Assembly (NCBI RefSeq): GCF_000148725.1 | Contig: NZ_GL476310.1 | Location: 207,219 to 271,218 of the forward strand | DNA: 64,000 nucleotides | From: Roseibium sp. TrichSKD4 | GTDB taxonomy: Bacteria > Pseudomonadota > Alphaproteobacteria > Rhizobiales > Stappiaceae | Direction: 5' to 3' | Shown: piece after piece, positions 799 through 50,646 of the stretch | How the letters are laid out: every line of letters begins with the position of its first letter | Position numbering within the stretch: the stretch's first letter is position 1 | Translations under genes and position numbers: made by a program | Notes under the pieces: generated by a model | Seen by the model: the letters and a program-made list of their open reading frames with translations, nothing else | Databases searched by the model: none | Told to the model about the DNA's origin: nothing

Positions 799-2637
799 TT
801 ATTGGGCTGAAGCTTGCTCAATGTTCTTGATTTTGAACACCCAGAAGGAACCGCCTTGGCTTACTTCTCTTGTCAGCTTGGCCATGTCCCCACCCCACAG
901 TGGGACAGCTCCACCATATCCAGACGCAAAACCGATGTACTGTTCGCCGTCCATCTCCCAGGTCACAGGGCAAGAGATGATGCCGGACCCAGTCTGGAAG
1001 CTCCATAACTCTTCACCCGTTTCTGCGTGGAACGCCTTCATGTAGCCATCAGAGGTTCCAGTGAAGACTAGGTTGCCGGCTGTAGTCATTGTCCCAGCCC
1101 ACAAGGGGAGTTCTTCTTTGTGCTCCCAGACGACTTCACCAGTTGTTGGGTTCATAGCTCTTAAAAGACCGACATGATCTTCAAACAGGCGTTTGATTGT
1201 AAAGCCCATACCCAGATAAGCAGCTCCTGGAGAATAGGTTACCTGCTCGGTCCAGTAATCCTCGGTCCAATGGTTTGCCGGGACATAGAACAATCCGGTA
1301 TCCGGGCTGTAAGACATCGGGTTCCAGTTTTTACCACCAAGGAATGGCGGCGAAACCTGAACAGAAGCGCCTCTCTTCTCGCCCTCTGCTGGAGGTGGCG
1401 GGCGCTGACCTTGGACTTCGATTGGTCGCCCTGTCTTGAGATCAATACCCTCGGCCCACGTGATTTTGTCCACAAACGGGAAAGCGTTCAAGAGAGCGGT
1501 TGGACGGTTGATATCACCTCCCCGCTTAGAGCGTGCGTCAATATCTGTTACATAAAAGAAGCCATTCCGATCGGCATGGGCGCCAGCGCGGTGCTTCTGA
1601 CCTTCCTTATCTGTGTAATCAAACAGTATAATCTCATTGTTGCCTGAAAAGTCCCAGGCATCGTTTGGCGTGTGTTGGTAGAAGCCAATCAACTCACCAT
1701 TTGAGGGATCAACATATGCTTGGCCGGATGTAAACAGGCTGTCGCCAGGCCATCTTGTCCAACCGTTCCAAGGGGCAGGATTACCCGCGCCGATAATAAT
1801 TGTGTTGGTTTCAACATCAAATGATGCTGACTGCCAAGGCGCGCCACCACCATGGCGCCATGCTTCAACCAATTCGCCATTTTCGTCGCGCGGCCAAGAT
1901 GGCGCGTTAGGATCGCCGGTCGGAGTTGACGGCTCGCCCATATAGCGTCCCACATGGCCCTGCACCAATGGACGCATCCAGACTTCCTCCCCGGTTTCCG
2001 GGTCACGGGCATAGAGTTTTCCGACAATACCGAATTCATCCCCGGAGGAACCATGTATCAATAGGTCTCGGCCTGATTTTTTATCATGAATTATAGTCGG
2101 CGCGCCTGTCATTGTGTAACCGACTTTGTAGTCACCAAACCTTTTGCGCCAGATAACTTTGCCTGTGTTTTTATCAAGAGCCACTATAGAGGCATCCAAC
2201 AACCCCATATATACCTTGTCACCATAGATTGCTGCGCCGCGGTTAACTACGTCACAGCATGGACGAATTCCTTCTGGTAGACGCGCAGAAAACTGCCACA
2301 GTTTCTTTCCAGTTTTGGCGTCCAGAGCAAACATTCGACTATAGGACGCAGTTGCGTAAATCACCCCATCGTGAACAATTGCTTGAACTTCTTGGCCTCG
2401 TTGCCGTTCGTCTCCGAACGAGAAAGACCACGCTGGTACAAGGTCATCTACGTTTTCTGTGTTGATTTTCGTCAGTGGGCTGTAGCGTTGAGCGTCTGGC
2501 CCAAAGCCATACATCAGAACGTCTTCAGTCGTTTGAGCGTCATTTACGATGTCTTCCCAAGAGACATCAGCAAGTGCTGTCCCAACCATTGAAAATGTCA
2601 ATAAGCTTGCAGCTAAAATTCTGGCCTTCAATTTCAT
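799..2637 (-). CDS. exaA: PQQ-dependent alcohol dehydrogenase, quinoprotein ethanol dehydrogenase (ExaA/QedA) type
   Basis: A periplasmic quinoprotein that oxidises primary alcohols to aldehydes and passes electrons to a c-type cytochrome. The chosen start gives 612 residues. It is preceded by a GGAGGAAG ribosome site and followed by a signal peptide of about 23 residues. The protein shows repeated propeller tryptophan motifs and the vicinal cysteine pair at 127-128 typical of PQQ dehydrogenases. By family knowledge the metal and catalytic residues are Glu201, Asn286 and Asp329. The residue two after the catalytic Asp is Ser331, not the Asp that marks lanthanide-dependent XoxF/ExaF enzymes, so a calcium enzyme is expected. 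An in-frame ATG at 2700 is rejected because it would precede the signal peptide. A two-component system lies upstream on the same strand. The cofactor genes pqqBCDE lie about 60 kb away. No cytochrome partner gene is seen nearby. Confidence 0.93.
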   Translation of the reverse strand: MKLKARILAASLLTFSMVGTALADVSWEDIVNDAQTTEDVLMYGFGPDAQRYSPLTKINTENVDDLVPAWSFSFGDERQRGQEVQAIVHDGVIYATASYSRMFALDAKTGKKLWQFSARLPEGIRPCCDVVNRGAAIYGDKVYMGLLDASIVALDKNTGKVIWRKRFGDYKVGYTMTGAPTIIHDKKSGRDLLIHGSSGDEFGIVGKLYARDPETGEEVWMRPLVQGHVGRYMGEPSTPTGDPNAPSWPRDENGELVEAWRHGGGAPWQSASFDVETNTIIIGAGNPAPWNGWTRWPGDSLFTSGQAYVDPSNGELIGFYQHTPNDAWDFSGNNEIILFDYTDKEGQKHRAGAHADRNGFFYVTDIDARSKRGGDINRPTALLNAFPFVDKITWAEGIDLKTGRPIEVQGQRPPPPAEGEKRGASVQVSPPFLGGKNWNPMSYSPDTGLFYVPANHWTEDYWTEQVTYSPGAAYLGMGFTIKRLFEDHVGLLRAMNPTTGEVVWEHKEELPLWAGTMTTAGNLVFTGTSDGYMKAFHAETGEELWSFQTGSGIISCPVTWEMDGEQYIGFASGYGGAVPLWGGDMAKLTREVSQGGSFWVFKIKNIEQASAQ

Positions 2638-2867
2638 CCATCTTCCTCCCAAGCAATTTTCTTTTGCTAAGGGGAGGTTACTGCTCATTATTTTGAACAA
2701 ACTGAGAGCTTTATAAGAAACCTATAAGAAAACATTGGACATAAGTCTAAACATGTTACTTAGTACAATCATCCCAGCATTGGGCAATCAACTTGGAAAT
2801 TTCAAACGACGGAAATGAGATGCCAACTGCGTACTGATGGGTCTTTTTCCGAAGCTAGCTCCAGCGA

Positions 2868-3547
2868 TTATTTGTACGCAGACTCAAGTCGAAAACCAAC
2901 TCCTCGAACCGTCTTAATTGTGATTTCAGAACCGGATGCCGCAAGTTTCCTGCGGAGATACCCTACATATACATCGACAACACCTGTAGTATGCTTTTCT
3001 TCGTCCCCCAGACATCTCCCAACAGGCTATCCCGCAACACCGCATCGCCACGGGACTGCATAAGGGAATGCAGCAAATCGAACTCACGTTTGGTCAGTTC
3101 AATTATGTTGTTATCGGAGTGTACGATCCGTCGGGACGGATTCAGTGAAAGAGAACCAATGACTAGGTTTTTGTTTTGTTTGTAATCTTTTTGCCTGCGA
3201 AGATGCGCGGCAATGCGGGCGGACAATTCAGCTGTTGAAAATGGTTTTGTAATGTAATCATCCGCGCCCAACCTCAAGCCCCTCAGCATATCCGCTTGAC
3301 TGTCACGACAAGTCAACATCACGATAGGAACTGTGACGCCGCTCTCGCGCAAACGCTGGCAAACTTCAAAACCGCTGAAAACAGGCAACATCGCATCAAG
3401 TAGGATAAGGTCAAACGCACCAGATGCCCCTGCTATCAAGCCCAACTCGCCATCGTTCACAACCGAAATCTCTTGTCCGGTGTTTTGGAGGGTTTTTGAT
3501 ATCAGGTCAGAGATATCGGGATTATCTTCAACAACAAGGATGGTCAT
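2868..3547 (-). pseudogene. OmpR/PhoB-type response regulator, broken by a one-base frameshift in a G tract
   Basis: A transcription regulator with an N-terminal receiver domain (phospho-acceptor Asp51, VMLT and KPF motifs) and a C-terminal winged helix. The frame reads normally to VWG, then passes through five G bases (C at 3005-3009 on the plus strand) into a short wrong tail ending at 2963. One additional G would restore the usual DNA-binding end, with [13 protein letters not shown] and TVRGVGFRL motifs, stopping at 2868-2870. The intact frame would encode about 226 residues, the usual length. As written, the recognition helix and wing are lost. The start at 3547 overlaps the end of the histidine kinase by 20 bases, so the two were one operon. 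The cause could be a recent mutation, tract-length variation or an assembly error. The downstream dehydrogenase gene is a plausible target by position only. Confidence 0.85.
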
Positions 3548-5072
3548 GACAATCATTCTTTGAACGAAGAAGCGGTAGACGAACTGTGAATTCTGCTCCT
3601 CCGTTTACGGTGTTCTCAAAGTTGATATTTCCTTTGTGCTGGTCCGCAATTTGGTTGGCCATTGAAAGCCCAATTCCAGTTCCGCCGCTGAAGAAACTGG
3701 TATGTCGATCAAAAATCGACTTGCCTTGTAAAACACCGGGCCCATGATCACATATAGACACGACTGCAAACCCATCTGCACCGCCTAACTTTATTTCTAG
3801 AGGCTCGCTTTCAGAGGCGAAACGAAGACCGTTCTCAACAATCGCGTCGAAAAGGCGCACAAGCCCATCACGATCTCCTTCAATCTCAAATGGGCCATCA
3901 TCTGAGGCTGAAAAACTTATATATTCTGCGTTTGGCAAAACCCTGAGTTCAGCCAATCTGTTGTCCAGAAGTTCGGTGAGCTCAACAACGCACCGTGGCG
4001 ACGTCAGTCTGCCATCATCAGATTGCGCGAGGGATAGCAGTTCAGATATTCGTTGGTTGACGTTGTCGATTGCCAGAAGTGCGATTGGCACCTCCTGCTC
4101 GTTATTCTTGATGTTTTCTATCGACCCACGTGCCACCGATAGCGGTGTCTTCAAACTGTGGCCGAGGTCGGTGAGAAATCGTCGTCTTGTTTCGTCAATT
4201 TGCTTCAGCCTTGTGTTGCTTAGCTGCAGAGCGTTTGACCGGTGCTCAAGCTCAAATTTAAGGTCAGACTGTACGGTTCTCGATAATGTTCGCTCATCGG
4301 ACAGTGCCTTCCGCAATTCAACAACTGCCGACCGAATATCCACGTCTGGCAAATCAATACTCGAAAGTTGAGGTTCGGAATCTGTGCGCAGTTCCATCAG
4401 ACTCTCAACGAGTAGCTTTCGAAAACCAGCATGCATACTTGCCTGCCAAAGCCAGCCAAAAACGGTACTGCATGCCGCTACAAACAAAAGCACAAACAGC
4501 AAACGCGACCATCGCGTTTGCTCAGTCTCCAGTGTTTTGTGTGCTCGTTCTATTTCCCCTCGCTCATCTTCAATGGCTTCCTGAACCAATGCTTGTATTC
4601 GCTGCCGAGAAGTCACCACAAGCGAGAGGGTCTCTGATACGTCTAAACCGAGGTCAGCCGAGCCTCTCAAACGTATGAGTTGCCTAGCATGCCCTAAAAC
4701 CTCAATCAGTGCCTCGCGGAGTTCCCTTGGACGTTGTCGCTCGGCTTCTTCTTCATTTTGCTCATCTTCACCGACAAATCCTATCTCGATCTCGGTGAGT
4801 TGATCCAAAACACCGAAAGTATGAATTGCGTCCCGCTCGAAAGCATCCAATAGCTGAAGTGTATCTTTCAGATCAGGGTTCAAGATTAGCGAAATCAGTT
4901 GATCATCAAGACGAATGGCAACTCTTTCCAAAGCTACAATTTGTCCGGAAGCTTGTTCTATTCGAGTGGTTAGATGTCTCACGCGCTCGAAATTGAAATA
5001 AGTCACTGCTGTAGCCAATGTGACAGTCAACAAGGCGATCAAGATCGACAATAATCGCAGCAGATTGCTCAT
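3528..5072 (-). CDS. Membrane sensor histidine kinase
   Basis: An inner-membrane sensor of 514 residues. Two membrane segments (about residues 5-25 and 190-211) enclose a periplasmic region rich in helix and acidic residues. Then come a coiled linker, the dimerisation helix with phospho-acceptor His305 (GHSLKTPL), and an ATPase domain with N box (VENGLRF), G1 (DHGPG) and G2 (GGTGIGL). The start is placed at 5072 because its ATG overlaps the stop of the upstream gene as ATGA, which suggests translational coupling. A start at 5105 is possible but poorly placed. The cognate regulator follows directly and carries a frameshift, so the pathway may be inactive. The ligand is unknown; location beside the PQQ dehydrogenase suggests a link to alcohol oxidation, as inference. 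Confidence 0.88.
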   Translation of the reverse strand: MSNLLRLLSILIALLTVTLATAVTYFNFERVRHLTTRIEQASGQIVALERVAIRLDDQLISLILNPDLKDTLQLLDAFERDAIHTFGVLDQLTEIEIGFVGEDEQNEEEAERQRPRELREALIEVLGHARQLIRLRGSADLGLDVSETLSLVVTSRQRIQALVQEAIEDERGEIERAHKTLETEQTRWSRLLFVLLFVAACSTVFGWLWQASMHAGFRKLLVESLMELRTDSEPQLSSIDLPDVDIRSAVVELRKALSDERTLSRTVQSDLKFELEHRSNALQLSNTRLKQIDETRRRFLTDLGHSLKTPLSVARGSIENIKNNEQEVPIALLAIDNVNQRISELLSLAQSDDGRLTSPRCVVELTELLDNRLAELRVLPNAEYISFSASDDGPFEIEGDRDGLVRLFDAIVENGLRFASESEPLEIKLGGADGFAVVSICDHGPGVLQGKSIFDRHTSFFSGGTGIGLSMANQIADQHKGNINFENTVNGGAEFTVRLPLLRSKNDCHDHPCC

Positions 5073-5485
5073 TTTTGTTCTTTTGTAACAAGGTGCAAGC
5101 TCCACCCGCCACTTGCATCAATTTGAACACTTATTTTTTCTGTACTCGCAATTTGGTAAGTTCGCTCCCCAACGCCTCCAATGTGAAGATTTTGGATTGT
5201 ATTGCCATTTTCGTCCAAAACAGTCGCTACAAGAACGGCATCATTGCTGGAGATCAGAATCTTATCGCCTTTCTAGACTTCAAAAATCGGTGTCTGTCCG
5301 GAACGCTCTCCCAAGAAAACTCTTTTCTTCTTAAGCGCGGTTTTGGCGAGCTGATCATAACAGCTAAGACGTTCATCTGGCCTAGGCTTCTCTTGGCAAG
5401 CCCGCAAGCTCTCATCTAACTCTGCTGCCCACGCTGCCATGGACTGCAAAATCGTCAGCGAGACCACTAGAATTAAATTTCGCAT
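5069..5485 (-). pseudogene. Small exported protein interrupted by an in-frame amber codon
   Basis: The frame opens with a signal peptide (about residues 1-20, ending AWA) and a segment with paired cysteines around ACQEKPRPDERLSCYDQLAK, a pattern of small periplasmic proteins. Codon 71 (5273-5275 on the plus strand, CTA) is TAG. The same frame then stays open for another 67 codons, with an ordinary beta-rich composition, up to a TGA that overlaps the histidine kinase ATG. That exact junction argues that the original gene was one protein of about 138 residues and that the TAG is a point mutation. The family is not recognised. It may have been a periplasmic accessory protein of the sensor. The first 70 residues alone could still be made and exported. 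Confidence 0.7.
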
Positions 5486-5794: not shown

Positions 5795-6130
5795 TCACCT
5801 CATCTTGAGTATTTGCCCCGCCAGTGAGCGCTGTTCAGATGACGCATTTTGATATAGCTCCACAAAGCCATCGTGTTCGGACAATTTCGGTCTTATGCGC
5901 AGTGCCTCAATGAGCTCCCGTCGGCGATTGTCATCCAGCTGGCCGTAGTGCTCCTCGGTCGTGCGCATATGCTCGTGACCAAGGTTCTGGCTGAGAGTCT
6001 TGCGTTCTTCCATTATCATTGCGATCTCGTCGATCATCAGAGCGAGCGTCGATCTGATTGCATGGGGGACGAAGTACTTCTGCCCAGCCTTTACGGTGGC
6101 ATGTTTCAGGGTTTTCCGGACCACCGTTGG
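5795..6130 (-). pseudogene. Tyrosine recombinase (phage-type integrase), C-terminal fragment, left copy
   Basis: About 110 residues of the catalytic end of an integrase are present: HxxR in PHAIRST, the second histidine in LGHEH and the nucleophile tyrosine in TEEHYGQL. The N-terminal binding domain and the first catalytic arginine are absent. The DNA and protein closely match the fragment at 12107-12769, with an estimated 80-90 percent identity by eye. The match ends near 6130, about 35 bases before the end of the convergently placed cassette border (the LysR gene stop at 6166). Both fragments are on the minus strand, so they form a diverged direct repeat around the catabolic cassette. Not functional as it stands. 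Confidence 0.85.
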
Positions 6131-6165
6131 GCAGGCTCTGAAACACTTGCTCTCGCTCAGGAGGA

Positions 6166-7008
6166 TCAGCGCACTAACTGGCGATGAAGCCAATCTCGAA
6201 ACGAAACAGCGTTGGCATTAATTTCGTTGATGGAAAGGTAGTACCCCTCTTGTCCGGTGATGGACGCAAGATGCGCCTGTACTAGCAGACCTTCTTTTAT
6301 GGCGTTACCGGCAAGCAACTCGTTCACCAGCGCGACCCCGTTCCCATGCATGGCAATTTGTAGCGCCATACCATAGGAATCTGCAAAGATGCTCGGCGCA
6401 CTGCAGCCGGGGAAAACCTCTCCCCAGGCTCGCCAACCACTTGATGTCCCAACGGTCTCGATCAGCGGCAGTTCTTCCAGTTTCCCTTCAAGGCGGGGAG
6501 ACTTGAGAGCAACCAGTCTGCTTGGCTCCAGAAGTTCCGCATTTTTTCCAACCTGCTTTTGCGATCCAAAGCGAATTTCGACATCCGCGCGGGCGGTGTG
6601 AAAGTCATCTGGCCAAATCGCACTCAGGAACCTGAGCCGAACATCTGGATGGTTGGACATAAAACTGGCGAGGTGCGGCGTGATCACCCATTGTGCGACG
6701 CTGACTGACGTTGCAATGGTCAGTTGATCCGCGGTTGGGCCAGCGTCGAAAGCTTCCGTTGCGAAGGCCAGTTTTTCGAGGGCAGCTCCAACCTGAGGCA
6801 GCAAGCTTCGTCCATTATCTGTCAGCGACAGCCCTCGCGCATGGCGCGTGAACAGCGCAACACGCAGCCTCGTCTCAAGTGCTTTTATCTGTTGGCTGAC
6901 AGCCGACTGTGTCATGCCGATCTCGTTGGCAGCGGCAGTGAAACTGAGATGCCGGGCAGCGGCTTCAAATGTACGAAACCATGTCAGGGGTGGTAGCGAT
7001 TTGGTCAT
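6166..7008 (-). CDS. LysR-family regulator (GcvA-like), likely controls the divergent catabolic cassette
   Basis: A 280-residue cytoplasmic activator with the N-terminal winged helix-turn-helix (residues about 8-65, with AARHLSFTAAANEIGMTQSAV) and a substrate-binding domain typical of LysR proteins. The opening LPPLTWFRTFEAAARH is characteristic of the GcvA branch. It is transcribed away from the cassette starting at 7118, and the 109-base gap between them holds a perfect inverted repeat with the T-N11-A form of LysR sites. That arrangement is the classic layout for a LysR protein acting on a neighbouring operon in response to a pathway compound. The effector cannot be read from sequence. If the cassette is tgn-like, this gene would play the TgnR position, but TgnR membership of the same family was not verified. 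Confidence 0.9.
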   Translation of the reverse strand: MTKSLPPLTWFRTFEAAARHLSFTAAANEIGMTQSAVSQQIKALETRLRVALFTRHARGLSLTDNGRSLLPQVGAALEKLAFATEAFDAGPTADQLTIATSVSVAQWVITPHLASFMSNHPDVRLRFLSAIWPDDFHTARADVEIRFGSQKQVGKNAELLEPSRLVALKSPRLEGKLEELPLIETVGTSSGWRAWGEVFPGCSAPSIFADSYGMALQIAMHGNGVALVNELLAGNAIKEGLLVQAHLASITGQEGYYLSINEINANAVSFRDWLHRQLVR

Positions 7009-7022
7009 TTGTCAAGCAAGCC

Positions 7023-7037
7023 ATTAGTCATTCTAAT
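7023..7037. promoter_or_regulatory. Candidate LysR operator in the divergent promoter region
   Basis: The bases ATTAG, a five-base spacer and CTAAT form a perfect 15-base palindrome that contains a T-N11-A core. It lies 15 bases upstream of the LysR gene start and about 80 bases before the first cassette gene, where autoregulation and activation sites usually lie. No footprint or second half-site was identified. Confidence 0.6.
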
Positions 7038-7117
7038 ACCTAAGCCCATAATTCATTCGCTTGTCAAAAATGCTCCTCCAAAACACAGTTTGCGGACCAA
7101 GTGAGGGAGAGCACAGA

Positions 7118-7717
7118 GTGCAGCCGGACATCCGCAAGATCGTTACCTATGATGAAGAAGTTCTGATTGAGGGGTTTCACCCAGCCGCCACGCCCTGGCG
7201 AATGTTTGCGGTCGCATGTGTTGTCCGCAATCCTTGGGCTGGCCGTTATGTGGAGGATCTGAAGCCGGAAATTCAGGCCTATGGGCCGGTGCTCGGGAAG
7301 CTGATGAGCCAGAGGATGATTGAGTTTGCCGGAGGCGGCGCAGCCATCGAAGCCTGTGGAAAAGCTGCTGTAGTCGGTCTTGATGGCGAAGTGGAACACG
7401 CGTCGGGCCTGATCCACACCCTGCGATTTGGCAATTTTTACCGCGAAGCCGTAGAGGCCAGATCCTACCTGTCTTTCACCAACACGCGCGGTCCGGCGAA
7501 TGCTCCAATCATGGTGCCTCTGATGGACAAGAATGATGCCGGTCGAAGATCGCACTACCTCACAATCCAGTTTGCGATCCCGGATGCCCCTCGAGCCGAC
7601 GAGATTGTCGTTGTTCTCGGCGGCGCGACCGGGGGGCGCCCGCATCACCGAATTGGTGATCGCTATCAGGACCTGAAGGATCTCGGACATGACGTGGACA
7701 ATCCGGCCGCGGTCTGA
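7118..7717 (+). CDS. AA_synth / DUF1185 family protein (annotated elsewhere as amino acid synthesis family)
   Basis: The sequence matches the small DUF1185 (AA_synth) family, with features such as HTLRFGNFYREAVEARSYLSFTN and the closing GDRYQDLK region. The family name is historical and its biochemical role is not established. I chose the GTG at 7118 because GAGGGAGA lies 7 bases before it and the resulting 199 residues fit the family length. An ATG at 7070 would add an unconserved-looking leader. It is the first gene of a tightly packed plus-strand operon. Its 3' end overlaps the hydrolase gene by 29 bases, so it is probably co-translated with catabolic enzymes and may act on an amide or ring-derived intermediate (inference). 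Confidence 0.75.
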   Translation: MQPDIRKIVTYDEEVLIEGFHPAATPWRMFAVACVVRNPWAGRYVEDLKPEIQAYGPVLGKLMSQRMIEFAGGGAAIEACGKAAVVGLDGEVEHASGLIHTLRFGNFYREAVEARSYLSFTNTRGPANAPIMVPLMDKNDAGRRSHYLTIQFAIPDAPRADEIVVVLGGATGGRPHHRIGDRYQDLKDLGHDVDNPAAV

Positions 7718-8468
7718 CTTCGGTGCCCTGTCGGCCATATCTCAGGGGAGCGGTCCTAAGCTGGTGCTTGTTCATGGCGTTGGACTTCGGGCAGAGGCCT
7801 GGAACCGCCAGCTTGACGCTCTCAGCGAACGGTTTGAGGTTACCGCCCTGGATACGCCAGGTCATGGGGAAAGCCCTATACGCGATCCGTTGTCGGCAAT
7901 TCAGGACTTTACCGATCTGGTCGCGGGGCAGATACCTGAGCCGGTCATGATCATCGGTCATTCGATGGGAGCGATGATCGCGCTTGATCTGGCAATCCGG
8001 TATCCAACGCGCGTGCGCGGAGTTGCTGCCCTCAATGCGGTCTACCGGCGAAGCCCTGAAGCCAGAGACGCCGTCATGGCTCGCGCATCAAGCCTTGACG
8101 GACGCTCACCCCCCGACCCGTCCGAGCCGCTTCGAAGGTGGTTTGGCAGTGGTGACAGCGAAGAAAAATCCGCCTGCAGCAACTGGCTGACATCGACCGA
8201 TCCCGCGGCCTACAAACGTGCCTACAGCGCTTTTGCCCGCTCTGACGTTCCCTCTCCAAATGGACTTGAAGCGATGAAATGTCCCGCTCTTTTCATGACA
8301 GGAAGCCGGGAACCCAATTCCACACCGGACATGAGCCGGGCCATGGCCGCAGTCGCGCCAGATGGCAAGACGGCCATCCTGGACGGAGCGGCGCACATGA
8401 TGCCCATGACCCATGCGGACAAGGTAAACCCGATCCTTTTGGATTTTGCTCTAGGTGTTTGGAAATGA
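7689..8468 (+). CDS. Alpha/beta-fold hydrolase (possible TgnD-like amide hydrolase)
   Basis: A cytoplasmic hydrolase of 259 residues. It has the oxyanion strand VLVHGVG (residues 26-32), the nucleophile elbow GHSMG with Ser92, and a C-terminal catalytic His near residue 236 (GAAHMMP). Length and motif order match single-domain alpha/beta hydrolases. It overlaps the upstream gene by 29 bases, and its stop overlaps the next start as ATGA. In Acinetobacter baylyi trigonelline degradation, the ring-opened N-formyl intermediate is cleaved by a hydrolase (TgnD); placement beside a flavin monooxygenase, flavin reductase and aldehyde dehydrogenase suggests a comparable step here. Substrate identity is an inference from context. 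Ester or lactone hydrolysis is equally compatible with the fold. Confidence 0.85.
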   Translation: MTWTIRPRSDFGALSAISQGSGPKLVLVHGVGLRAEAWNRQLDALSERFEVTALDTPGHGESPIRDPLSAIQDFTDLVAGQIPEPVMIIGHSMGAMIALDLAIRYPTRVRGVAALNAVYRRSPEARDAVMARASSLDGRSPPDPSEPLRRWFGSGDSEEKSACSNWLTSTDPAAYKRAYSAFARSDVPSPNGLEAMKCPALFMTGSREPNSTPDMSRAMAAVAPDGKTAILDGAAHMMPMTHADKVNPILLDFALGVWK

Positions 8469-9388
8469 CAAAGTTTGATCCACGCGCCTTGCGGGATGCT
8501 TTTGGCAGTTTCATGACCGGTGTCACGGTCGTGACGGCTTGCACTCCCGATGGGATGGCCATCGGCTTCACGGCCAACTCGTTCACATCAGTTTCGCTGG
8601 ACCCGCCGATGCTGCTGGTGTGTCCGGGCAAATTTCTGTCGACCTTCGAAGCCTTTTCCTGTTGTCAGCATTTTGCCGTCAACATACTTGCCGAGGACCA
8701 GCAGGACATTTCAAATACCTTCGCCCGGCGTGGCGAGGACCGGTTTGCGAGCGTGGCGCATACGCGCAACCACCGTGGTGTGCCATTGATCGAAGGGGCG
8801 TTGGCCAGCTTCTCGTGCATCCGTCGCCAATGCTTGCCAGCAGGGGACCACGCCATCCTGCTGGGCGAGGTCGAAGAGTTTCAGCATGGAGATGGTCGCG
8901 GGCTTGGGTATTTTCGCGGGCATTATTTCAGTCTCGGATTGGAGCGTTCCGCTCTCGATCCCGGAGCCAAGGTCGTCACATGCGGTGTGATCCTCGAGAT
9001 CGGCGGGAGAGTTCTTCTTGAAAAGACAGACAAAGGGTTCAGGCCGCCGCAAGTCAATTTGAAGGACCACTCGCTGCTGCGCCAGTCATTGATTGATGGC
9101 ATGGCTCGACACGGCATAAGCGTCAAGCTTGGACCAGCCTATTCTGTGTTCGACCATGGCGGAAACCGCACGCACTGCGCCTATTTTCTGGCAACCGGCA
9201 GTATGAATGCTGCCCCGGAAAACCTTCATGGCATTGGGCTGCAGGAGCTAGCCGGGCTCGACTACGCCTCTCCAGCGATAGCCCAGATGATGACCCGGTA
9301 TATGCACGAACAGCGAACGGGGGACTTCTCGCTCTATCTCGGTAGCACCGATCGCGGTGATGTTCACAAGTTTGCTTTGGGAGATTGA
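8465..9388 (+). CDS. Flavin reductase with C-terminal NUDIX-like domain (reductase of a two-component monooxygenase)
   Basis: The first 160 residues form a flavin reductase domain of the HpaC type (FGSFMTGVTVVTA near the start, GFTANSFTSVSLDPPM, NILAEDQQ) that uses NAD(P)H to reduce FMN or FAD. After about residue 170 there is a second domain of about 135 residues with NUDIX-like strand order, but the canonical NUDIX glutamates are not present, so it is more likely a sensing or binding domain than an enzyme. Total length is 307 residues. The start ATG overlaps the previous stop (ATGA), and the monooxygenase follows after 3 bases. It should supply reduced flavin to the downstream luciferase-like protein. 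The two-domain form is recalled for trigonelline monooxygenase reductases; this was not checked. Confidence 0.85.
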   Translation: MTKFDPRALRDAFGSFMTGVTVVTACTPDGMAIGFTANSFTSVSLDPPMLLVCPGKFLSTFEAFSCCQHFAVNILAEDQQDISNTFARRGEDRFASVAHTRNHRGVPLIEGALASFSCIRRQCLPAGDHAILLGEVEEFQHGDGRGLGYFRGHYFSLGLERSALDPGAKVVTCGVILEIGGRVLLEKTDKGFRPPQVNLKDHSLLRQSLIDGMARHGISVKLGPAYSVFDHGGNRTHCAYFLATGSMNAAPENLHGIGLQELAGLDYASPAIAQMMTRYMHEQRTGDFSLYLGSTDRGDVHKFALGD

Positions 9389-9391
9389 TAA

Positions 9392-10426
9392 ATGGACTTC
9401 TCTCTCTTTGTTCACATGGATCGTTCCAGCCCTGAACAGTCCCATGAGGAACTGCGTCTCGAATACATGGACTTGTGCAAGCTGGCCGACGAGGCGGGCA
9501 TGCGCGCTGTGTGGACCGGTGAACATCACGGCATGGATTTCACTATTTCGCCCAACCCGTTCCTTGAGCTGGTCAATGTGGCCAATCACACGAAAAACCT
9601 CCGCCTTGGAACCGGCACGGTCATTGCCCCTTTCTGGCATCCAATCAAACTGGCTGGGGAAGCTGCCTCGGCAGACCTGATCACAGGCGGGCGTATAGAA
9701 CTGGGGATCGCGCGCGGGGCCTATTCCTATGAATATGAGCGCCTCATGCCGGGCATGGATGCCTGGGAGGCAGGCCAGAGAATGCGGGAGATGGCTCCCC
9801 TTCTCCCGAAACTCTGGCAAGGCGATTGTACCCACGAAGGTAAGTTCTTCAGCTTTCCCGCGGCCACCTCCGCTCCCAAGCCGCTGCAGGCCGATGGCCC
9901 GCCAATCTGGATTGCGGCCCGCGACCCCAACAGCCACGAATTTGGAGTTCACAATGGCTTCAACATTCAAGTCACGCCTCTTTGGCAGGGTATCGAAGAA
10001 ATTGAGATCCTGATGCAGCGCTTCAATGCAGCTTGCCAAACCCTTGACGGGCCGCGTCCGAAAATCATGTTGTTGCATCACACTTATGTTGCTGCGGACG
10101 AGGCGGATATTTCTAGGGCTGCGGGTGAATTGTCGCGCTTTTATTGCAACTTCGGAGCCTGGTTTCAGAACAAGAGGCCGGTTTCCCAGGGCAGGCTTCT
10201 TCCATTGGACGAAGAGGACTATGCCACCAATGTCATGATGGCACCCGATAATATGCGCCGGGACCTGACAATGGGCATGGCGCCCGAGGTCGTGGACAGG
10301 ATCAAACGCTATGAAGATCTTGGCTATGATGAGTTTTCGTACTGGATCGACAGCGGCATGAGTTTTGAGCGCAAAAAGGCCTCGCTCGAACGATTTGTCA
10401 CTGATGTCATGCCAAAATTCCGATGA
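9392..10426 (+). CDS. Luciferase-like (LLM) flavin-dependent monooxygenase, oxygenase component
   Basis: A 344-residue TIM-barrel monooxygenase of the bacterial luciferase superfamily. The N-terminal MDFSLFVHMD, the GEHHG motif near residue 48, the RLGTGTVIAPFWHP segment and the GRIELGIARG segment are typical. Members use reduced flavin and oxygen to hydroxylate or open rings. It follows the flavin reductase by 3 bases and overlaps the aldehyde dehydrogenase by 4, so these products should be made together. Gene content resembles the tgnAB pair that opens the pyridinium ring of trigonelline in Acinetobacter. Other N-heterocycles or long-chain substrates remain possible because substrate pockets in this family are not readable by eye. 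Confidence 0.9.
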   Translation: MDFSLFVHMDRSSPEQSHEELRLEYMDLCKLADEAGMRAVWTGEHHGMDFTISPNPFLELVNVANHTKNLRLGTGTVIAPFWHPIKLAGEAASADLITGGRIELGIARGAYSYEYERLMPGMDAWEAGQRMREMAPLLPKLWQGDCTHEGKFFSFPAATSAPKPLQADGPPIWIAARDPNSHEFGVHNGFNIQVTPLWQGIEEIEILMQRFNAACQTLDGPRPKIMLLHHTYVAADEADISRAAGELSRFYCNFGAWFQNKRPVSQGRLLPLDEEDYATNVMMAPDNMRRDLTMGMAPEVVDRIKRYEDLGYDEFSYWIDSGMSFERKKASLERFVTDVMPKFR

Positions 10427-11913
10427 GGTGCCCCGTGAAAAACAATCCGCATTATCAGCTATTTATAGACGGGCAATGGGTTGAGGGGGTAACGGGACAG
10501 GTCATGTGCTCTCAAAACCCCGCAACCGGAGAAGATTGGGCAACCTTTGCCTGCGCTTCGCCGAAAGACGTGGACCGCGCCATTTCAGCTGCCCGCAGAA
10601 CGCTGAACTCAGCAGAATGGCGGGACATGAGCCAGACAAAACGGGGTAAACTGCTTTACCGCCTTGCTGAACTGATCGAGCAGAATGCCGAGCATATCGG
10701 CTGTATCGAGACAACCGACAGCGGCAAATTGCTCGCAGAAACTGCCAGCCAGTCGGCCTATGTCGGGGACTATTATCGCTACTATGCAGGCCTTGCCGAC
10801 AAAATCGAAGGCTCGGTATTGCCGATCGACAAGCCTGACATGCACGTGTTTACGCGCTTGGAGCCGATCGGGGTCGTTGTGGCGATTGTGCCATGGAATG
10901 CCCAGATGTTCCTGACAGCCACAAAACTTGGCCCTGCGCTGGCGGCGGGATGCACTGTTGTTCTCAAGGCATCAGAGATCGCCCCTGCTCCCATGTTCGA
11001 GTTCGCCAAACTGGTGGAAGCCGCAGGTTTTCCTGCTGGCACTGTATCCGTCATCACCGGTGATGCTCTGAACTGCGCCATCCCTCTCACCCGTCACCCG
11101 GATGTAGACCGTATTGCCTTCACTGGCGGGCCGGAAACCGCTCGCCATGTCATCCGCAACTCTGCAGAAAATTTCGCTGTAACGACCCTCGAATTGGGCG
11201 GTAAGTCGCCAATCATTGTCTTCGAGGACGCCGACCTTGATGGAGCTGCCAACGGCCTGATCGCCGGAAATTTTGGAGCATCAGGGCAAAGCTGCGTCGC
11301 AGGCTCCAGGGGGCTGGTGCATCGATCAATCTATGAAAAACTCGCGGCCCGGATCGAGGAAAAAATGGCAAATGTTGTCATCGGCGATCCGCTTGATAGA
11401 AGCACCCATGTCGGTCCCTTGTGCACGTCGCAACAAGTGGCGCGGATCGAGGAAACATTGGCAGCTTCGAAGACATCCGGTGCCCGTATACGCTTCGGAG
11501 GGGCGCGCCTCGATCGACCGGGAAATTACATGGCACCGACGCTGGTTGAATGCGCAAACGCCGAAACCGAAACTCTCAAGGTCGAGATGTTTGGCCCGGT
11601 CATGTCGCTACTGCCTTTTGACACGGAGGAAGAGGCAATCGCTCTGGCCAATGCCACGCCATTTGGCCTCGGTTCCGGTGTGTTTACGCAAAATGTCGCC
11701 CGTGCCCACCGGGTCTCGGCGCGATTGAAAGCAGGTATCTGCTGGATCAACACCTATCGCGCAGTCTCTCCCATCGCGCCCTTTGGCGGCTACAATATGT
11801 CCGGGTATGGCCGAGAAGCGGGGATAGCAGCGATTCAGGACTACATCCGCACAAAAACAACATGGATCAACACATCAGAGCGACCGATGGCAAACCCCTT
11901 CGTCATGCGATGA
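10423..11913 (+). CDS. NAD(P)-dependent aldehyde dehydrogenase of the catabolic cassette
   Basis: A 496-residue cytoplasmic aldehyde dehydrogenase of full family length. The nucleotide-binding segment has PWN around residues 158-159, the general base is Glu257 in LELGGKSP, and the catalytic nucleophile is Cys291 in GQSCVAG. The C-terminal PFGGYNMSGYGREAG segment is also standard. The ATG at 10423 overlaps the monooxygenase stop; a GTG four codons later could also serve. It is the last gene of the cassette. In the trigonelline route an aldehyde dehydrogenase-type enzyme (TgnC) oxidises the ring-opened hydroxybutyrolactone form, which fits this gene order, but the exact substrate is inferred. 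About 190 bases without a gene follow before the right integrase fragment. Confidence 0.92.
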   Translation: MRCPVKNNPHYQLFIDGQWVEGVTGQVMCSQNPATGEDWATFACASPKDVDRAISAARRTLNSAEWRDMSQTKRGKLLYRLAELIEQNAEHIGCIETTDSGKLLAETASQSAYVGDYYRYYAGLADKIEGSVLPIDKPDMHVFTRLEPIGVVVAIVPWNAQMFLTATKLGPALAAGCTVVLKASEIAPAPMFEFAKLVEAAGFPAGTVSVITGDALNCAIPLTRHPDVDRIAFTGGPETARHVIRNSAENFAVTTLELGGKSPIIVFEDADLDGAANGLIAGNFGASGQSCVAGSRGLVHRSIYEKLAARIEEKMANVVIGDPLDRSTHVGPLCTSQQVARIEETLAASKTSGARIRFGGARLDRPGNYMAPTLVECANAETETLKVEMFGPVMSLLPFDTEEEAIALANATPFGLGSGVFTQNVARAHRVSARLKAGICWINTYRAVSPIAPFGGYNMSGYGREAGIAAIQDYIRTKTTWINTSERPMANPFVMR

Positions 11914-12106: not shown

Positions 12107-12769
12107 TCACCTCATCTCGAGAATTTGCCTCGCCAGTGCTCGCCGTTCAGCTGGTGCATTTTGATAAAGCTCCGCAAAGCCTTCCTGTTCAGACAGCTTC
12201 GGCCTTATGCGCATTGCCTCAATGAGCTCCTGGCGACGATTGTCATCCAGCTGGCCGTAGTGCTCCTCGGTTGTTCGCATATGCTCGTGACCAAGGTTCT
12301 GGCTGAGAGCCTTGCGCTCCTCGAACGTCGCTGCAATCTGGTCGATCATTAGAGCGAGTGTCGATCTGATAGCATGGGGCACGAAGTACGTCTGCCCAGC
12401 CTTTGCGGTGGCTTGTTTCAGGATGTGCCGGACAGATGCTGCAGTTTGCCAAAATTGGCTTTCACCACTTTTAACCGGGATCGCGCTGGGTGAGCGCGGG
12501 AAGACCGGTTCATTTTCTGAAGATGCAGTCGTTCCGCGCTCGTTGATCCAGTCGATGAAAATCTGTCCAATGTCCTCACCAACCGGGAACCAGAAGGTTG
12601 TCATCGTTTTGGAGAATTTGGTTCGCACCTCCTTTGCATTCTGGAAGATTAGACGGTTCTCCAGATCGATATGCTTCAAACGCATGCTGATGAGGGCTGC
12701 ATCCCTTACACCGGTCAAAAACAAAAATGCCACGATGGCCCGATCCCGTCTCTGCTGGACGGTATCTTT
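12107..12769 (-). pseudogene. Tyrosine recombinase (integrase), C-terminal fragment, right copy
   Basis: About 215 residues covering the whole catalytic domain: first arginine in TGVRD, HxxR in PHAIRST, histidine in LGHEH and tyrosine in EEHYGQL. The arm-binding and core-binding domains are missing. Integrase-like sequence begins around PKDTVQQRRDRA near 12769, and upstream the DNA instead encodes an AlpA-like helix-turn-helix in another frame, so the gene is a deletion product. It lies between the catabolic cassette and the 3' end of tRNA-Ser, the usual place for an integrase of a tRNA-targeting island. It is longer than, and matches, the left copy at 5795-6130. An ATG at 12733 could start a truncated protein, but activity is doubtful. 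Confidence 0.85.
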
Positions 12770-13337: not shown

Positions 13338-13427
13338 TGGCGGAGAGAGAGGGATTCGAACCCTCGGAACGCTTGCGCGCTCAACGGTTTTCGAGACCGC
13401 CCCGTTCGACCACTCCGGCACCTCTCC
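13338..13427 (-). tRNA. tRNA-Ser (anticodon CGA)
   Basis: A 90-base cloverleaf with a seven-pair acceptor stem (GGAGAGG with TCTCTCC, last pair G-U), an anticodon loop CTCGAAA giving anticodon CGA, a long variable arm as expected for serine, a T arm with GGTTCGAAT, and an encoded CCA end. It reads UCG codons. Its 3' end faces the integrase fragments and the accessory region, consistent with past use as an integration target. Confidence 0.95.
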
Positions 13428-29600: not shown

Positions 29601-29639
29601 TTAATCTGGTTGGAAAAATCGCCAGCCAGAGAGAATAAC

Positions 29640-31316
29640 ATGACATTCGGCAAGGGGCTTTCCAGAAAGCCGTCCCAGCCCAAGGGTCGTCAGATAGACG
29701 ATGTGGCGCTGGAAGAAGTGCAAAAGCTGCTCCAAGATGAGCCGCGCCGCCGCGATCTTCTGATCGAGCATCTTCACAAGATCCAGGATGCTTACGACCA
29801 TCTCTCGGCAGCTCATCTCAGGGCACTCGCAGACGAAATGCGTCTGTCTCAGGCTGAGGTTTATGAAGTCGCCAGCTTTTACCACCACTTCGACATCGTG
29901 AAGGAAGGCCAAGCCGCGCCCGCTCCGCTGACGATCCGTGTGTGTGACAGCGTCGCTTGTTCGCTGAAAGGCGCTGATTCTCTGGCAAAGGTACTCGGTG
30001 AAACACTGGACCCTGCCAAGATACGCATCCAGAAAGTGCCGTGCATCGGGCGCTGTGCGTCGGCGCCTACCGTTCAGGTAGGCAAACGCGCTGTCGACAA
30101 TGCGAGCGAACTCTCCGTGAAGGCAGCCGTCTTTGAAGGGGCAAGCGAAGCAGAAGTCCCGGCTTATGTGAACCTTGAGGCTTACCGGAAAGACGGTGGC
30201 TACCAGAAGCTGGAAGACGTGCGCTCCGGCAAGGTCGGGGCGCTGGATATTGCGGACCAGCTTCTTGCAGCAGGCCTCCGGGGCCTTGGCGGAGCCGGGT
30301 TCCCGACCGGCACGAAATGGAAGATTGTCAACGATCTGCCGGGCCCGAAATACCTCACCATCAATGGCGATGAAGGGGAGCCGGGAACCTTCAAGGATCG
30401 GTTTCATCTGGAGCGCGACCCGCATCGGTTACTGGAAGGGGCTCTGATTGCCGCTCACGCCGTCGGCGTTGAACGCATTTATCTCTACATGCGCGATGAG
30501 TATCCCGCTGTTCTGGAAATCCTGAGGCGGGAAATTTCGGCTCTTAGGGATGCCGGTATCATCACGAATATCGACTTTGAACTTCGCCGCGGCGCTGGCG
30601 CCTATATCTGCGGCGAGGAAAGCGCGATGATCGAGTCGATCGAAGGCAAGCGCGGCCTGCCGCGTCATCGTCCGCCCTTCATTGCGCAGGTTGGCCTCTT
30701 CGGACGCCCAACTCTCAATCACAACGTCGAAACCCTGTTCTGGATTCGAGATATTCTTGAAAAGGGGGCTGACTGGTTCGCAAATCAGGGGCGGCGCGGT
30801 CACAAGGGGTTCCGGTCGTTCTCGGTGTCAGGCCGCGTGAAGGAGCCGGGCGTAAAGCTGGCCCCTGCTGGCGTCACCATGAACGAGCTGCTGACTGAAT
30901 TTTGCGGCGGCATGGAAGAAGGCCATAATTTCAAGGGTTACCTGCCCGGCGGCGCGTCTGGTGGCATCTTGCCAGCATCCCTTGCTGACGAGCCATTGGA
31001 CTTCGGTACGCTCGACAAGCACGGCTGCTTTATCGGCAGCCATGCCATTGTGGTCTTTTCTGACAAGGATGACATGCGCGATGTTGCCCTGAACCTGATG
31101 CAGTTCTTCAAACATGAAAGCTGCGGGCAATGCACGCCATGTCGTTCAGGCACCGAAAAGATGGTGAGCCTCTTGAAAGACCCGAACTGGGACAAGGCGA
31201 AAATCGCCGATCTTGATGCGGTCATGCGCTCTGCCTCCATCTGTGGGCTTGGGCAGGCCGCCAGCAATCCCGTTGCATCCGTCCTGAAATTCTTCCCGGA
31301 GGAGTTTGACCGATGA
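29640..31316 (+). CDS. fdsB: NAD-dependent formate dehydrogenase, beta subunit (NuoE-NuoF fusion)
   Basis: A 558-residue diaphorase subunit that passes electrons from formate oxidation to NAD. The first 150 residues are NuoE-like, with a 2Fe-2S cysteine set (CDSVACSLKG and CIGRCASAP). The rest is NuoF-like: FMN/NADH loop GLRGLGGAGFPTGTKW, GDEGEPGTFKDR, YICGEESAM and the 4Fe-4S cluster motif SCGQCTPCRSGTEK. This fused form matches Fdh1B of Methylorubrum extorquens rather than the separate FdsG/FdsB of Cupriavidus. The ATG at 29640 has GAGAGAA before it. Its stop overlaps the alpha subunit start by 4 bases. Confidence 0.93.
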   Translation: MTFGKGLSRKPSQPKGRQIDDVALEEVQKLLQDEPRRRDLLIEHLHKIQDAYDHLSAAHLRALADEMRLSQAEVYEVASFYHHFDIVKEGQAAPAPLTIRVCDSVACSLKGADSLAKVLGETLDPAKIRIQKVPCIGRCASAPTVQVGKRAVDNASELSVKAAVFEGASEAEVPAYVNLEAYRKDGGYQKLEDVRSGKVGALDIADQLLAAGLRGLGGAGFPTGTKWKIVNDLPGPKYLTINGDEGEPGTFKDRFHLERDPHRLLEGALIAAHAVGVERIYLYMRDEYPAVLEILRREISALRDAGIITNIDFELRRGAGAYICGEESAMIESIEGKRGLPRHRPPFIAQVGLFGRPTLNHNVETLFWIRDILEKGADWFANQGRRGHKGFRSFSVSGRVKEPGVKLAPAGVTMNELLTEFCGGMEEGHNFKGYLPGGASGGILPASLADEPLDFGTLDKHGCFIGSHAIVVFSDKDDMRDVALNLMQFFKHESCGQCTPCRSGTEKMVSLLKDPNWDKAKIADLDAVMRSASICGLGQAASNPVASVLKFFPEEFDR

Positions 31317-34087
31317 GCTCCGAAATCAAATTCACGCTCGATGGACGAGAAGTTGTCGCGAACGAAGGCGAAACCATCTGGCAGGTGGCGAAGCGCGAAG
31401 GCGTTGCCATTCCGCATTTGTGCCACAAGGATGCGCCGGGTTATCGCTCCGATGGCAATTGCCGCGCCTGCATGGTCGATATTGAAGGCGAACGCACTTT
31501 GACGGCGTCCTGTGTCCGGGCCCCGTCCGATGGGATGGTCGTCAACACGGCGAGCGAGCGGGCAGAAAAGGCCCGTGAGATGGTGTTCGAACTTCTGATG
31601 GCGGACCAGCCATCCCGCGATCAGCACCCGGACCCTGAAAGTGATTTCTGGAAATGGTCCGATGAGATTGGGGTGACGGAAAGCCGTTACGCGGCGTGCG
31701 GAAAACCGGCGCAGGACATCTCCCACCCCGCTATAGCGGTCAATCTGGATACCTGTATTGCCTGCAATCTCTGCGAACGGGCCTGCCGGGAAGTTCAGGT
31801 CAATGACGTGATCGGTATGGCCGATCGTGGATCGCATACGGTGCCGGTCTTTGACCTGATGGACCCGATGGGTCTCAGCTCCTGTGTGGCCTGCGGCGAG
31901 TGCGTATCGGCCTGCCCGACTGGCGCGCTGATGGAAAAGAGCCTGCTGGACGAGGCGGCAAAGGTCCGTACGGTTTATGCAGAAGAGAGCATCGACAGTG
32001 TCTGCCCGTTCTGCGGCGTTGGATGTCTGACCTCCGTGAAGGTCAAGGACGGTAGAATCGTTCAGGTGGAAGGCCGGGATGGTCCGGCAAATGAAAACCG
32101 GCTTTGCGTCAAGGGCCGGTTCGGCTTTGACTATGTTTCAAATCCTGAGCGTCTGACCAAGCCGCTGATCCGCCGCGACGATGCGCCGAAGAATGCTAAG
32201 GCAGGTCTCAAGTGGGAAGACCGGTTTGACGTGTTCCGCGAAGCCACGTGGGAAGAGGCGCTTGACCGGGCAGCGAGCGGTCTGAAAACCTCCCACGCTG
32301 CCAAGGGTGGAGCCGGCATTGCCGGGTTCGGGTCAGCCAAGGGATCGAACGAGGAAGCCTATCTCTTCCAGAAATTCATCCGCCAGGGCTTTGGCACCAA
32401 CAATGTCGACCATTGCACTCGGCTGTGTCATGCCTCGTCTGTTGCCGCCCTCATGGAAGGCATTGGCTCCGGCGCGGTCACCGCGCCGTTTACGGCAGCC
32501 GCTGATGCCGACTGCATGATCGTGATTGGCGCACGTCCGGAACAGAACCACCCCGTTGCGGCGACCTACATCAAGCAGGCTGCAAAGAACGGCACGAAGC
32601 TGATTGTCATGGACCCACGCGGTCAGGGCCTGATGCGCCATGCCGACTATGGCCTGAAGTTCAAGCCGGGCACCGATGTTGCCATGCTGAACGCGATCCT
32701 GAATGTGATCATCACCGAAAAGCTTTACGACGAACAGTATATTGCTGCCCACGTCGACGGCTTCGAGGCTTTGCAGGAAAAGATTGCTGACTTCACGCCG
32801 GAAGCGATGGAATCAGTTTGCGGGATTACAGCTCAGACCTTGCGCGAAGTGGCACGGCTTTATGCGACGAGTGCCAAGTCGATCATCTATTGGGGCATGG
32901 GCGTCTCGCAGCACGTTCACGGCACGGACAATGTCCGCTGCCTGATCGCCATGGCATTGACGACCGGCCAGATCGGCCGTCCCGGTACAGGTCTGCACCC
33001 GCTGCGCGGCCAAAACAATGTGCAAGGAGCGTCGGATGCAGGCCTGATCCCAATGGTATATCCGGATTATCGCTCCGTTGAAAATGCGGACATTCGCGGC
33101 GAATTCGAGGACGCCTGGGGACGGACACTCGATCCTGTGCGAGGATTGACCGTTGTCGAGATCATGGACGACATTCTGGTGGGCGGCATCGAGGCCATGT
33201 ATGTGATGGGTGAAAACCCGGCCATGTCCGATCCGGACCAGAACCATGCAAGGGCAGCGCTATCCAGCCTGAAACATCTGGTGGTTCAGGACATTTTCAT
33301 GACCGAGACAGCATGGCATGCGGATGTGATCCTGCCAGCGTCGGCCCATGCGGAAAAGCTCGGCACGTTTACCAACACCAACCGTCAAGTCCAGATCGGA
33401 CGTCCCTGTGTTCCAATGCCCGGAGAGGCCCGAGCCGATTATGAGATCATTGTTGATCTTGCGAATCGGACGGGGCTGAACTGGTCCTATGACGGGGTGC
33501 CAGCGGTCTATGAGGAAATGCGCTCGCATATGAAGTCGCTCTCCAACATCTCCTGGGAGCGCTTGGAGCGAGATGGCACCGTGACGTATCCGGCCGATGC
33601 GCCCGACAAGCCGGGCAACGAAATCCTGTTCGGCCAGTCGTTCCCGACAGCCGACGGCCGAGCACGAATTGTGCCGACGGACCTTGTCCCGCCCGATGAA
33701 GTGCCGGATGAGGATTTCCCGCTGGTGCTGACAACGGGCCGCATGCTGGAACATTGGCACACGGGTGCCATGACCCGACGGGCCACAGTTCTGGATGCGA
33801 TTGAGCCGGAACCGGTTGTCTCGATGAACCAGAAGGACATCGGGCGTCAGGGGCTGGATATCGGCCAGCAGGTGACCGTCGAAACGCGGCGCGGCGCCAT
33901 CACGCTGACCCTTCGGGCGGACAGGGACGTTTCGGAAGGCATGATGTTCATACCGTTCTGCTTTTTTGAGGCCCCGGCGAACTTCCTGACCAATCCGCAG
34001 CTGGACCCGTTCGGGAAAATCCCGGAATTCAAGTTCTGCGCGGCGCGTATTAGGCCCGCCGATGCTCATGCGCAGGCAGCTGAATAG
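31313..34087 (+). CDS. fdsA: NAD-dependent formate dehydrogenase, catalytic alpha subunit
   Basis: A 924-residue molybdenum- or tungsten-bis-MGD enzyme that oxidises formate to carbon dioxide. The N-terminus has a NuoG-like 2Fe-2S region, then two 4Fe-4S ferredoxin motifs (CIACNLCERAC, CVACGECVSACPTG), a further CPFCGVGC cluster motif, and the MGD domains. The active-site cysteine is expected in the DHCTRLCHASS segment near residue 365-370; no selenocysteine codon is needed. The C-terminal domain closes the cofactor tunnel. It forms an alpha-beta pair with the preceding gene. No fdsC, fdsD or fdhD gene follows; a bidirectional terminator ends the operon, so sulfuration and cofactor factors must lie elsewhere. 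Confidence 0.95.
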   Translation: MSSEIKFTLDGREVVANEGETIWQVAKREGVAIPHLCHKDAPGYRSDGNCRACMVDIEGERTLTASCVRAPSDGMVVNTASERAEKAREMVFELLMADQPSRDQHPDPESDFWKWSDEIGVTESRYAACGKPAQDISHPAIAVNLDTCIACNLCERACREVQVNDVIGMADRGSHTVPVFDLMDPMGLSSCVACGECVSACPTGALMEKSLLDEAAKVRTVYAEESIDSVCPFCGVGCLTSVKVKDGRIVQVEGRDGPANENRLCVKGRFGFDYVSNPERLTKPLIRRDDAPKNAKAGLKWEDRFDVFREATWEEALDRAASGLKTSHAAKGGAGIAGFGSAKGSNEEAYLFQKFIRQGFGTNNVDHCTRLCHASSVAALMEGIGSGAVTAPFTAAADADCMIVIGARPEQNHPVAATYIKQAAKNGTKLIVMDPRGQGLMRHADYGLKFKPGTDVAMLNAILNVIITEKLYDEQYIAAHVDGFEALQEKIADFTPEAMESVCGITAQTLREVARLYATSAKSIIYWGMGVSQHVHGTDNVRCLIAMALTTGQIGRPGTGLHPLRGQNNVQGASDAGLIPMVYPDYRSVENADIRGEFEDAWGRTLDPVRGLTVVEIMDDILVGGIEAMYVMGENPAMSDPDQNHARAALSSLKHLVVQDIFMTETAWHADVILPASAHAEKLGTFTNTNRQVQIGRPCVPMPGEARADYEIIVDLANRTGLNWSYDGVPAVYEEMRSHMKSLSNISWERLERDGTVTYPADAPDKPGNEILFGQSFPTADGRARIVPTDLVPPDEVPDEDFPLVLTTGRMLEHWHTGAMTRRATVLDAIEPEPVVSMNQKDIGRQGLDIGQQVTVETRRGAITLTLRADRDVSEGMMFIPFCFFEAPANFLTNPQLDPFGKIPEFKFCAARIRPADAHAQAAE

Positions 34088-49223: not shown

Positions 49224-49226
49224 TAA

Positions 49227-50549: not shown

Positions 50550-50646
50550 GTCGATCACTCCATATCCCCCGAGCCAAAAACGTCGGGGTAGTGTGTTCAC
50601 ATGGGTCAGTTCTCAGTGACAATTTATGGGGCCACCGGGTCAGTTC

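Follow-up and report, generated by a model that had tools for sequence, protein, structure and literature searches.

In the trigonelline (N-methylnicotinate) pathway, an N-formyl enamine gives rise to succinate semialdehyde, methylamine, formate, and CO2. The record of Acinetobacter sp. PK01 (locus L007) names three genes, tgnA, tgnB, and tgnC, with genes for a DUF1185 protein and a hydrolase in front of them; a GntR regulator gene and a DUF1330 gene are divergent, cytosine permease and succinate semialdehyde dehydrogenase (SSADH) genes lie behind, and sarcosine-oxidase-like genes lie upstream. The cassette analyzed here occupies positions 6166 to 11913 of a 64-kb stretch of the Roseibium sp. 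TrichSKD4 genome (contig NZ_GL476310.1, positions 207,219 to 271,218; henceforth the window) and consists of a LysR regulator gene divergent from genes for a DUF1185 protein, an alpha/beta hydrolase, a flavin reductase, a luciferase-like monooxygenase (LLM), and an aldehyde dehydrogenase (ALDH). It is likely to be a sister form of the tgn operon under LysR control, which reached its host on a genomic island and serves to open the pyridinium ring of trigonelline or of a very similar N-methylpyridinium carboxylate. Gene content, homology, gene order, phylogeny, a conserved regulator box, and the mobile context are the observations from which we infer the substrate and each catalytic step.

Gene content and homology to tgn loci

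These gene types had been read from the sequence alone, and all six frames do match the corresponding Pfam families; they are open and cover the family profiles over most of their length. The LysR gene (6166 to 7008, minus strand; Pfam HTH_1 and LysR_substrate) is separated by a 109-bp gap from the divergent operon on the plus strand. The operon begins with a TgnF-like DUF1185/AA_synth protein of 199 residues (7118 to 7717), which most likely starts at the GTG at 7118 and has the solved homologues 2qtp and 3byq, followed by a TgnD-like hydrolase (7689 to 8468) with a GHSMG nucleophile motif from residue 90 and AAHMM from residue 234. A TgnA-like reductase of 307 residues (8465 to 9388; Pfam Flavin_Reduct), the TgnB-like LLM that is the proposed ring-opening enzyme (9392 to 10426), and a TgnC-like ALDH carrying the motifs LELGG and GQSC (10423 to 11913) complete it. 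The gene ends overlap or nearly touch, as is typical of one transcription unit: the DUF1185 and hydrolase genes overlap, hydrolase and reductase share the ATGA at 8465, the LLM gene follows the reductase gene after three bases, and the ALDH start overlaps the LLM stop.

The sequence-only reading had likened these gene types to those of Acinetobacter trigonelline degradation, and the resemblance proves to be true homology. In a comparison with Acinetobacter baylyi DSM 14961 (L016; the comparison strain is not ADP1 itself), identities were 65% for DUF1185, 38% for the hydrolase, 39% for the reductase (residues 7 to 302 of 307), 60% for the LLM, and 53% for the ALDH. All five enzymes are colinear with this locus, whose domains were confirmed, and both it and the PK01 locus have DUF1185, hydrolase, tailed reductase, LLM, and ALDH genes in the same order and on the same strand. 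The LLM has a TgnB homologue as its best match, the aligned reductase tail corresponds to the C-terminal domain of TgnA, and the DUF1185 gene heads the operon just as it does in A. baylyi. Unlike the two Acinetobacter loci, which carry divergent GntR and DUF1330 genes, a cytosine permease, and an SSADH, the window has a LysR gene in the regulator position, and no GntR or DUF1330 reference matched anywhere in it. Nor were a linked SSADH and transporter found in the 64 kb, although these are not universal in tgn-type loci either; the SSADH reference weakly matched the cassette ALDH, with no separate gene in the window.

Homologous cassettes are widespread. On pSymA of Sinorhizobium meliloti, the cassette L008 keeps the five genes and their order but, unlike that of the window, is tgn-type by tree and is followed by NIPSNAP and ABC transporter genes; trigonelline catabolism presumably maps to this symbiotic region of S. 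meliloti. The best solved match to the reductase is SMa0793 of S. meliloti (3rh7; 39% over 289 alignment columns, covering both domains). In each of five genomes with tgn-type loci, the LLM has one close homologue (60 to 66% identity), further matches reaching at most 35% with E values no better than 7e-29. A scan of genome contigs covered the best 80 of 568 LLM relatives, A. baylyi DSM 14961 included. Among plasmids, LLM relatives occurred in 1,091 records, 251 of them at 60 to 80% identity and the best at 67.0%, and no plasmid match to the ALDH reached 60%; the same five genes stood in order in 11 of 12 plasmid regions opened. Several Burkholderia-type loci (including L003, L023, and L034) have a second flavin reductase of similar size and an ABC transporter upstream of their tgn-type operons.

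The sequence-only reading had also proposed a variant of the pathway, pointing to the DUF1185 gene and to a Nudix-like domain on the reductase. Neither feature marks a variant. The DUF1185 gene belongs to the A. baylyi locus too, and a passage of PMC7913881 describes TgnF of ADP1 as homologous to a DUF1185 protein and as stimulating TgnE-dependent succinate semialdehyde oxidation. The tail is shared with the tgn type: in 91 of 92 such loci, a reductase match extends to reference residue 270 or further, although some of these matches may come from a second reductase copy and the L063 sequence does not span the whole gene. In the window, this tail (8963 to 9358) has a Nudix fold; the catalytic Nudix motif is not visible by eye in the alignment and Pfam gives no Nudix match, making a non-catalytic role likely. 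The mutual placing of the two domains is unsure, given a model pTM of 0.51 and an rmsd to 3rh7 above 11. That the cassette is nonetheless a distinct sister type is borne out on other grounds, namely, by the trees and the regulator.

Phylogeny and regulation of the cassette

The cassettes L111 to L115 and L137 to L151, which are alphaproteobacterial and LysR-controlled, share the LLM clade of the window, and we define this LysR-controlled, tgn-like group here as the window type. Trees were built on chosen subsets, with 18 tgn-type rows in that of the LLM. The 21 window-type rows of the LLM tree group in a single clade with support of 99/97. In the ALDH tree, the tgn type lies on one side of a 100/100 branch and the window type, together with L117 to L119, on the other; the DUF1185 and hydrolase trees split the two types likewise, with SH-aLRT values of 97 and 100. 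The window-type ALDHs and DUF1185 proteins are not exclusive, as L117 and L118 fall among them (and L119 among the ALDHs), and the tgn-type LLMs stand alone on one side with support of only 48/0, L116 and L120 lying beside them. By trees and regulator, then, the cassette is a distinct sister type of the tgn operon; because its ALDH, hydrolase, and DUF1185 protein fall outside the tgn clade and its regulator is of another family, it is best kept apart from the tgn clusters proper.

The nearest relative, L137, has 81% identity in the LLM, 82% in the ALDH, 90% in DUF1185, and 67% in LysR but, unlike the window, gives no reductase match. In 21 window-type loci (counting the hybrid L153 described below and leaving out the window), the reductase is full length in 13, lacks the Nudix part in 3, and is unmatched in 5. 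Some window-type cassettes are otherwise incomplete, with no match to the ALDH in L140, to DUF1185 in L138, L144, and L146, or to LysR in L140, L144, and L148; L138 and L144 are short contigs, and L148 has a weak DUF1330 match (38%). More distant LLM relatives occur in cassettes of LLM and hydrolase only (L116, L120, and L121) or of DUF1185, hydrolase, LLM, and ALDH without a reductase (L117 to L119, with a DAO-type oxidoreductase following in L117). These reduced or altered cassettes possibly act on other N-heterocycles.

The two types also differ in their regulators. A homologue of the window LysR protein is present in 12 of the 15 loci L137 to L151 and in all 5 of L111 to L115, and GntR in 0 of the 15; among 22 tgn-type loci (L152, L154, and L156 to L175), GntR is present in 21 and the window-type LysR in none. 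The LysR protein is GcvA-like but, at 203.4 bits, stays below the NCBIfam GcvA cutoff of 288. Between the divergent genes, the exact inverted repeat ATTAGTCATTCTAAT (7023 to 7037) has arms ATTAG and CTAAT around a TCATT spacer, and it is the sole match to ATTAG-N5-CTAAT with 0 or 1 mismatch in the 64 kb. LysR binding sites usually take the form T-N11-A, to which the repeat conforms, and we therefore predict that the LysR protein binds it. Among 17 LysR-proximal regions (the window counted and L141 left out), the putative box is present in 15 with no more than one mismatch, being exact in five; L147 and L153 have two mismatches. In a separate scan, L112 has one. The window cassette thus combines the LLM clade, the LysR regulator, and the box of the window type.

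Substrate of the cassette

One indication of the substrate comes from a hybrid locus, L153. It brings together a GntR gene with tgn-type DUF1185, hydrolase, and ALDH genes (82 bp separating the hydrolase and ALDH frames), without a canonical tgnA or tgnB; a binding-protein transporter and an Fe-ADH gene come next, and then a window-type LysR, a short reductase, and a window-type LLM, about 5 kb downstream of the tgn-type genes. No other TgnB homologue was found in this genome at an E value of 1e-100, all nine candidates having been scored. On the simplest reading, the window-type LLM would feed the tgn-type ALDH and hydrolase through a shared intermediate, which suggests trigonelline or a near relative as the substrate.

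The LLM itself points the same way. Its model (pLDDT 87.3) matches luciferase-family chains, and between the consensus sequences of 22 window-type and 94 tgn-type LLMs, 65 of 73 positions are identical in the active-site shell versus 182 of 271 elsewhere. The shell was defined by the secondary structure of the model, as the strand ends on the C-terminal side, rather than by a bound ligand. Residues 18 and 190, both outside the shell, are the sole positions that distinguish the types when at least 90% agreement is required within each of them; a different, looser rule applied to six window-type rows gave nine diagnostic residues, against these two from 22 rows. Together, the hybrid and the conserved shell favor an identical or closely similar heterocycle, and the substrate is most probably trigonelline. 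If so, alphaproteobacteria have two parallel kinds of operon, under different regulators, for trigonelline-type ring opening, annotation by close identity to TgnA to TgnC would overlook the LysR type, and the natural hybrid offers a ready test of interchangeability.

Several observations weigh against this assignment. The hybrid is known from a single genome, and the ALDH, DUF1185, hydrolase, and LLM of the window type all separate from their tgn-type counterparts. At 45 positions of the ALDH, six window-type rows lack the residue that at least 90% of tgn-type rows share, so substrate drift is possible. References for GntR, DUF1330, cytosine permease, CMD, ABC transporter, and N-methylglutamate-type proteins match nothing in the window. 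Finally, GmaS, a marker of methylamine use, exceeds its cutoff in 2 of 5 window-type genomes, in 4 of 9 further genomes of that family (one with an LLM-plus-hydrolase locus), in 10 of 16 tgn-type genomes, and in 3 of 7 whose LLM relatives are of other kinds, a distribution that does not discriminate and gives methylamine release no support.

These differences leave some room, perhaps one chance in several, for a route that shares an ancestor with tgn and carries out the same five reaction types on another N-methylpyridinium or pyridine, such as homarine (N-methylpicolinate), 1-methylnicotinamide, or another betaine, the sister clade marking the change of substrate. That the ALDH, DUF1185 protein, and hydrolase branch apart from the tgn type fits such a change, as do the difference in regulator and LLM residue 190, with Phe in all 22 window-type rows but Cys in 92 of the 94 tgn-type rows. 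The conserved shell speaks against it, as does the pairing in L153, which would then mean that the same downstream enzymes handle the products of both monooxygenases. For homarine in particular, a 2026 paper on a conserved pathway is cited in a passage of PMC13390433, but TgnAB is unlikely to act on this compound for steric reasons, according to a passage of PMC8269262.

Proposed pathway

With trigonelline or a close relative as the substrate, the LysR protein would respond to it or to an intermediate at the ATTAG-N5-CTAAT box, and the reductase would deliver reduced flavin to the LLM, which, by homology to TgnB, is expected to cleave the ring with reduced flavin and oxygen. Oxidation of the ring-opened aldehyde or hydroxylactone would fall to the ALDH, and cleavage of the N-formyl enamine into succinate semialdehyde, methylamine, formate, and CO2 to the hydrolase; the DUF1185 protein would promote the last step, that of the semialdehyde, as TgnF is reported to do. 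Elsewhere in the window, the alpha subunit of a molybdenum formate dehydrogenase (29610 to 34087; over its NCBIfam cutoff) adjoins a NuoF-like subunit. Formate would be released by the proposed pathway, but the distance from the cassette is about 18 kb and such genes are common.

Distribution among genomes

In a class-wide alphaproteobacterial sample, the LLM was matched at an E value of 1e-100 or better in 14 of 385 genomes. It occurs in 6 of the 14 genomes of one family, 5 of which have the same LysR-headed cassette. In the Leisingera family (that of genome G004), 44 of 248 genomes have one LLM match each at an E value of 1e-80. After three distant matches (38 to 41% identity) were dropped, gene-by-gene classification gave 15 window-type, 25 tgn-type, and 1 hybrid locus, with G004, G336, and G159 classified from L092, L097, and L099. 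Mutual exclusion of the two types was considered and rejected: none of the 41 classified genomes has both monooxygenases, and with about 1.6 expected by chance, this absence is not significant.

Mobile context and remaining alternatives

The cassette is flanked by a 300-nt direct repeat of a tyrosine-recombinase end, on the minus strand and 87% identical between its left copy (5795 to 6094) and positions 12107 to 12406. The left copy lies in an open reading frame (5795 to 6193) with a weak NCBIfam recombinase match (E = 2.3e-4), and the other in a recombinase fragment (12107 to 12733, minus strand; Pfam Phage_integrase, 1.4e-12); both remnants look truncated. Beyond the second copy, a tRNA-Ser(CGA) gene (13338 to 13427, minus strand; ARAGORN), the probable integration site, lies 0.4 kb upstream of rplU. 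In five of five relatives, chosen within one order by best Obg matches, this tRNA also precedes rplU with unchanged relative orientation, at about 1 to 3 kb in three and 8 to 10 kb in two. Obg identities were 61 to 73% in the listed part of a sample of 385 alphaproteobacteria and 66 to 73% in one order, which places the host in an alphaproteobacterial lineage with no close genome among those covered. The 19-kb rplU loci of these relatives contain no match to the LysR, ALDH, recombinase, kinase, regulator, or PQQ frames of the window, and a window-type ALDH (E of 1e-200 or better) was found in 0 of 40 genomes of their order and in 5 of 43 of another. The absence of cassette matches from the relatives argues that the cassette is foreign to its host, and the tRNA and recombinase remnants that it was acquired horizontally; it probably arrived on a small genomic island, with its closest kin in the Leisingera family. 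A second copy of the tRNA 3' end was not found in the window, leaving the island ends undefined.

Such surroundings also allow for a decaying or silent passenger with no catabolic role in the host. The truncated-looking remnants and the lack of a separately matched transporter or SSADH reference in the window are consistent with this, but the six open frames matching their families over most of the profile, the catalytic motifs, and the exact LysR box make it improbable. Least credible is a pyrimidine-type ring opening like that of rut, an operon that shares LLM, hydrolase, and flavin reductase gene types with the cassette and nothing else: the window falls well below the cutoffs for RutF (84.1 versus 254.75 bits) and RutD (58.3 versus 238.5), RutA is not among the 25 of 26 LLM matches listed, and ALDH and DUF1185 are not known as rut genes.

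Several other mobile elements are present in the window. Between a transposase (2 to 763) and the cassette, positions 799 to 5105 hold genes for a PQQ-type dehydrogenase and a response regulator (its C-terminal domain partly matched) and, by eye, a sensor-kinase-like frame, none of which matches the rplU loci of the five relatives. Transposases of the IS21 and IS66 families exceed their cutoffs at 48588 to 50600 and 57652 to 59178. A second tRNA-adjacent case occurs in L113, where a tRNA-Arg(CCT) gene (12449 to 12525) adjoins the LysR gene of a window-type cassette.

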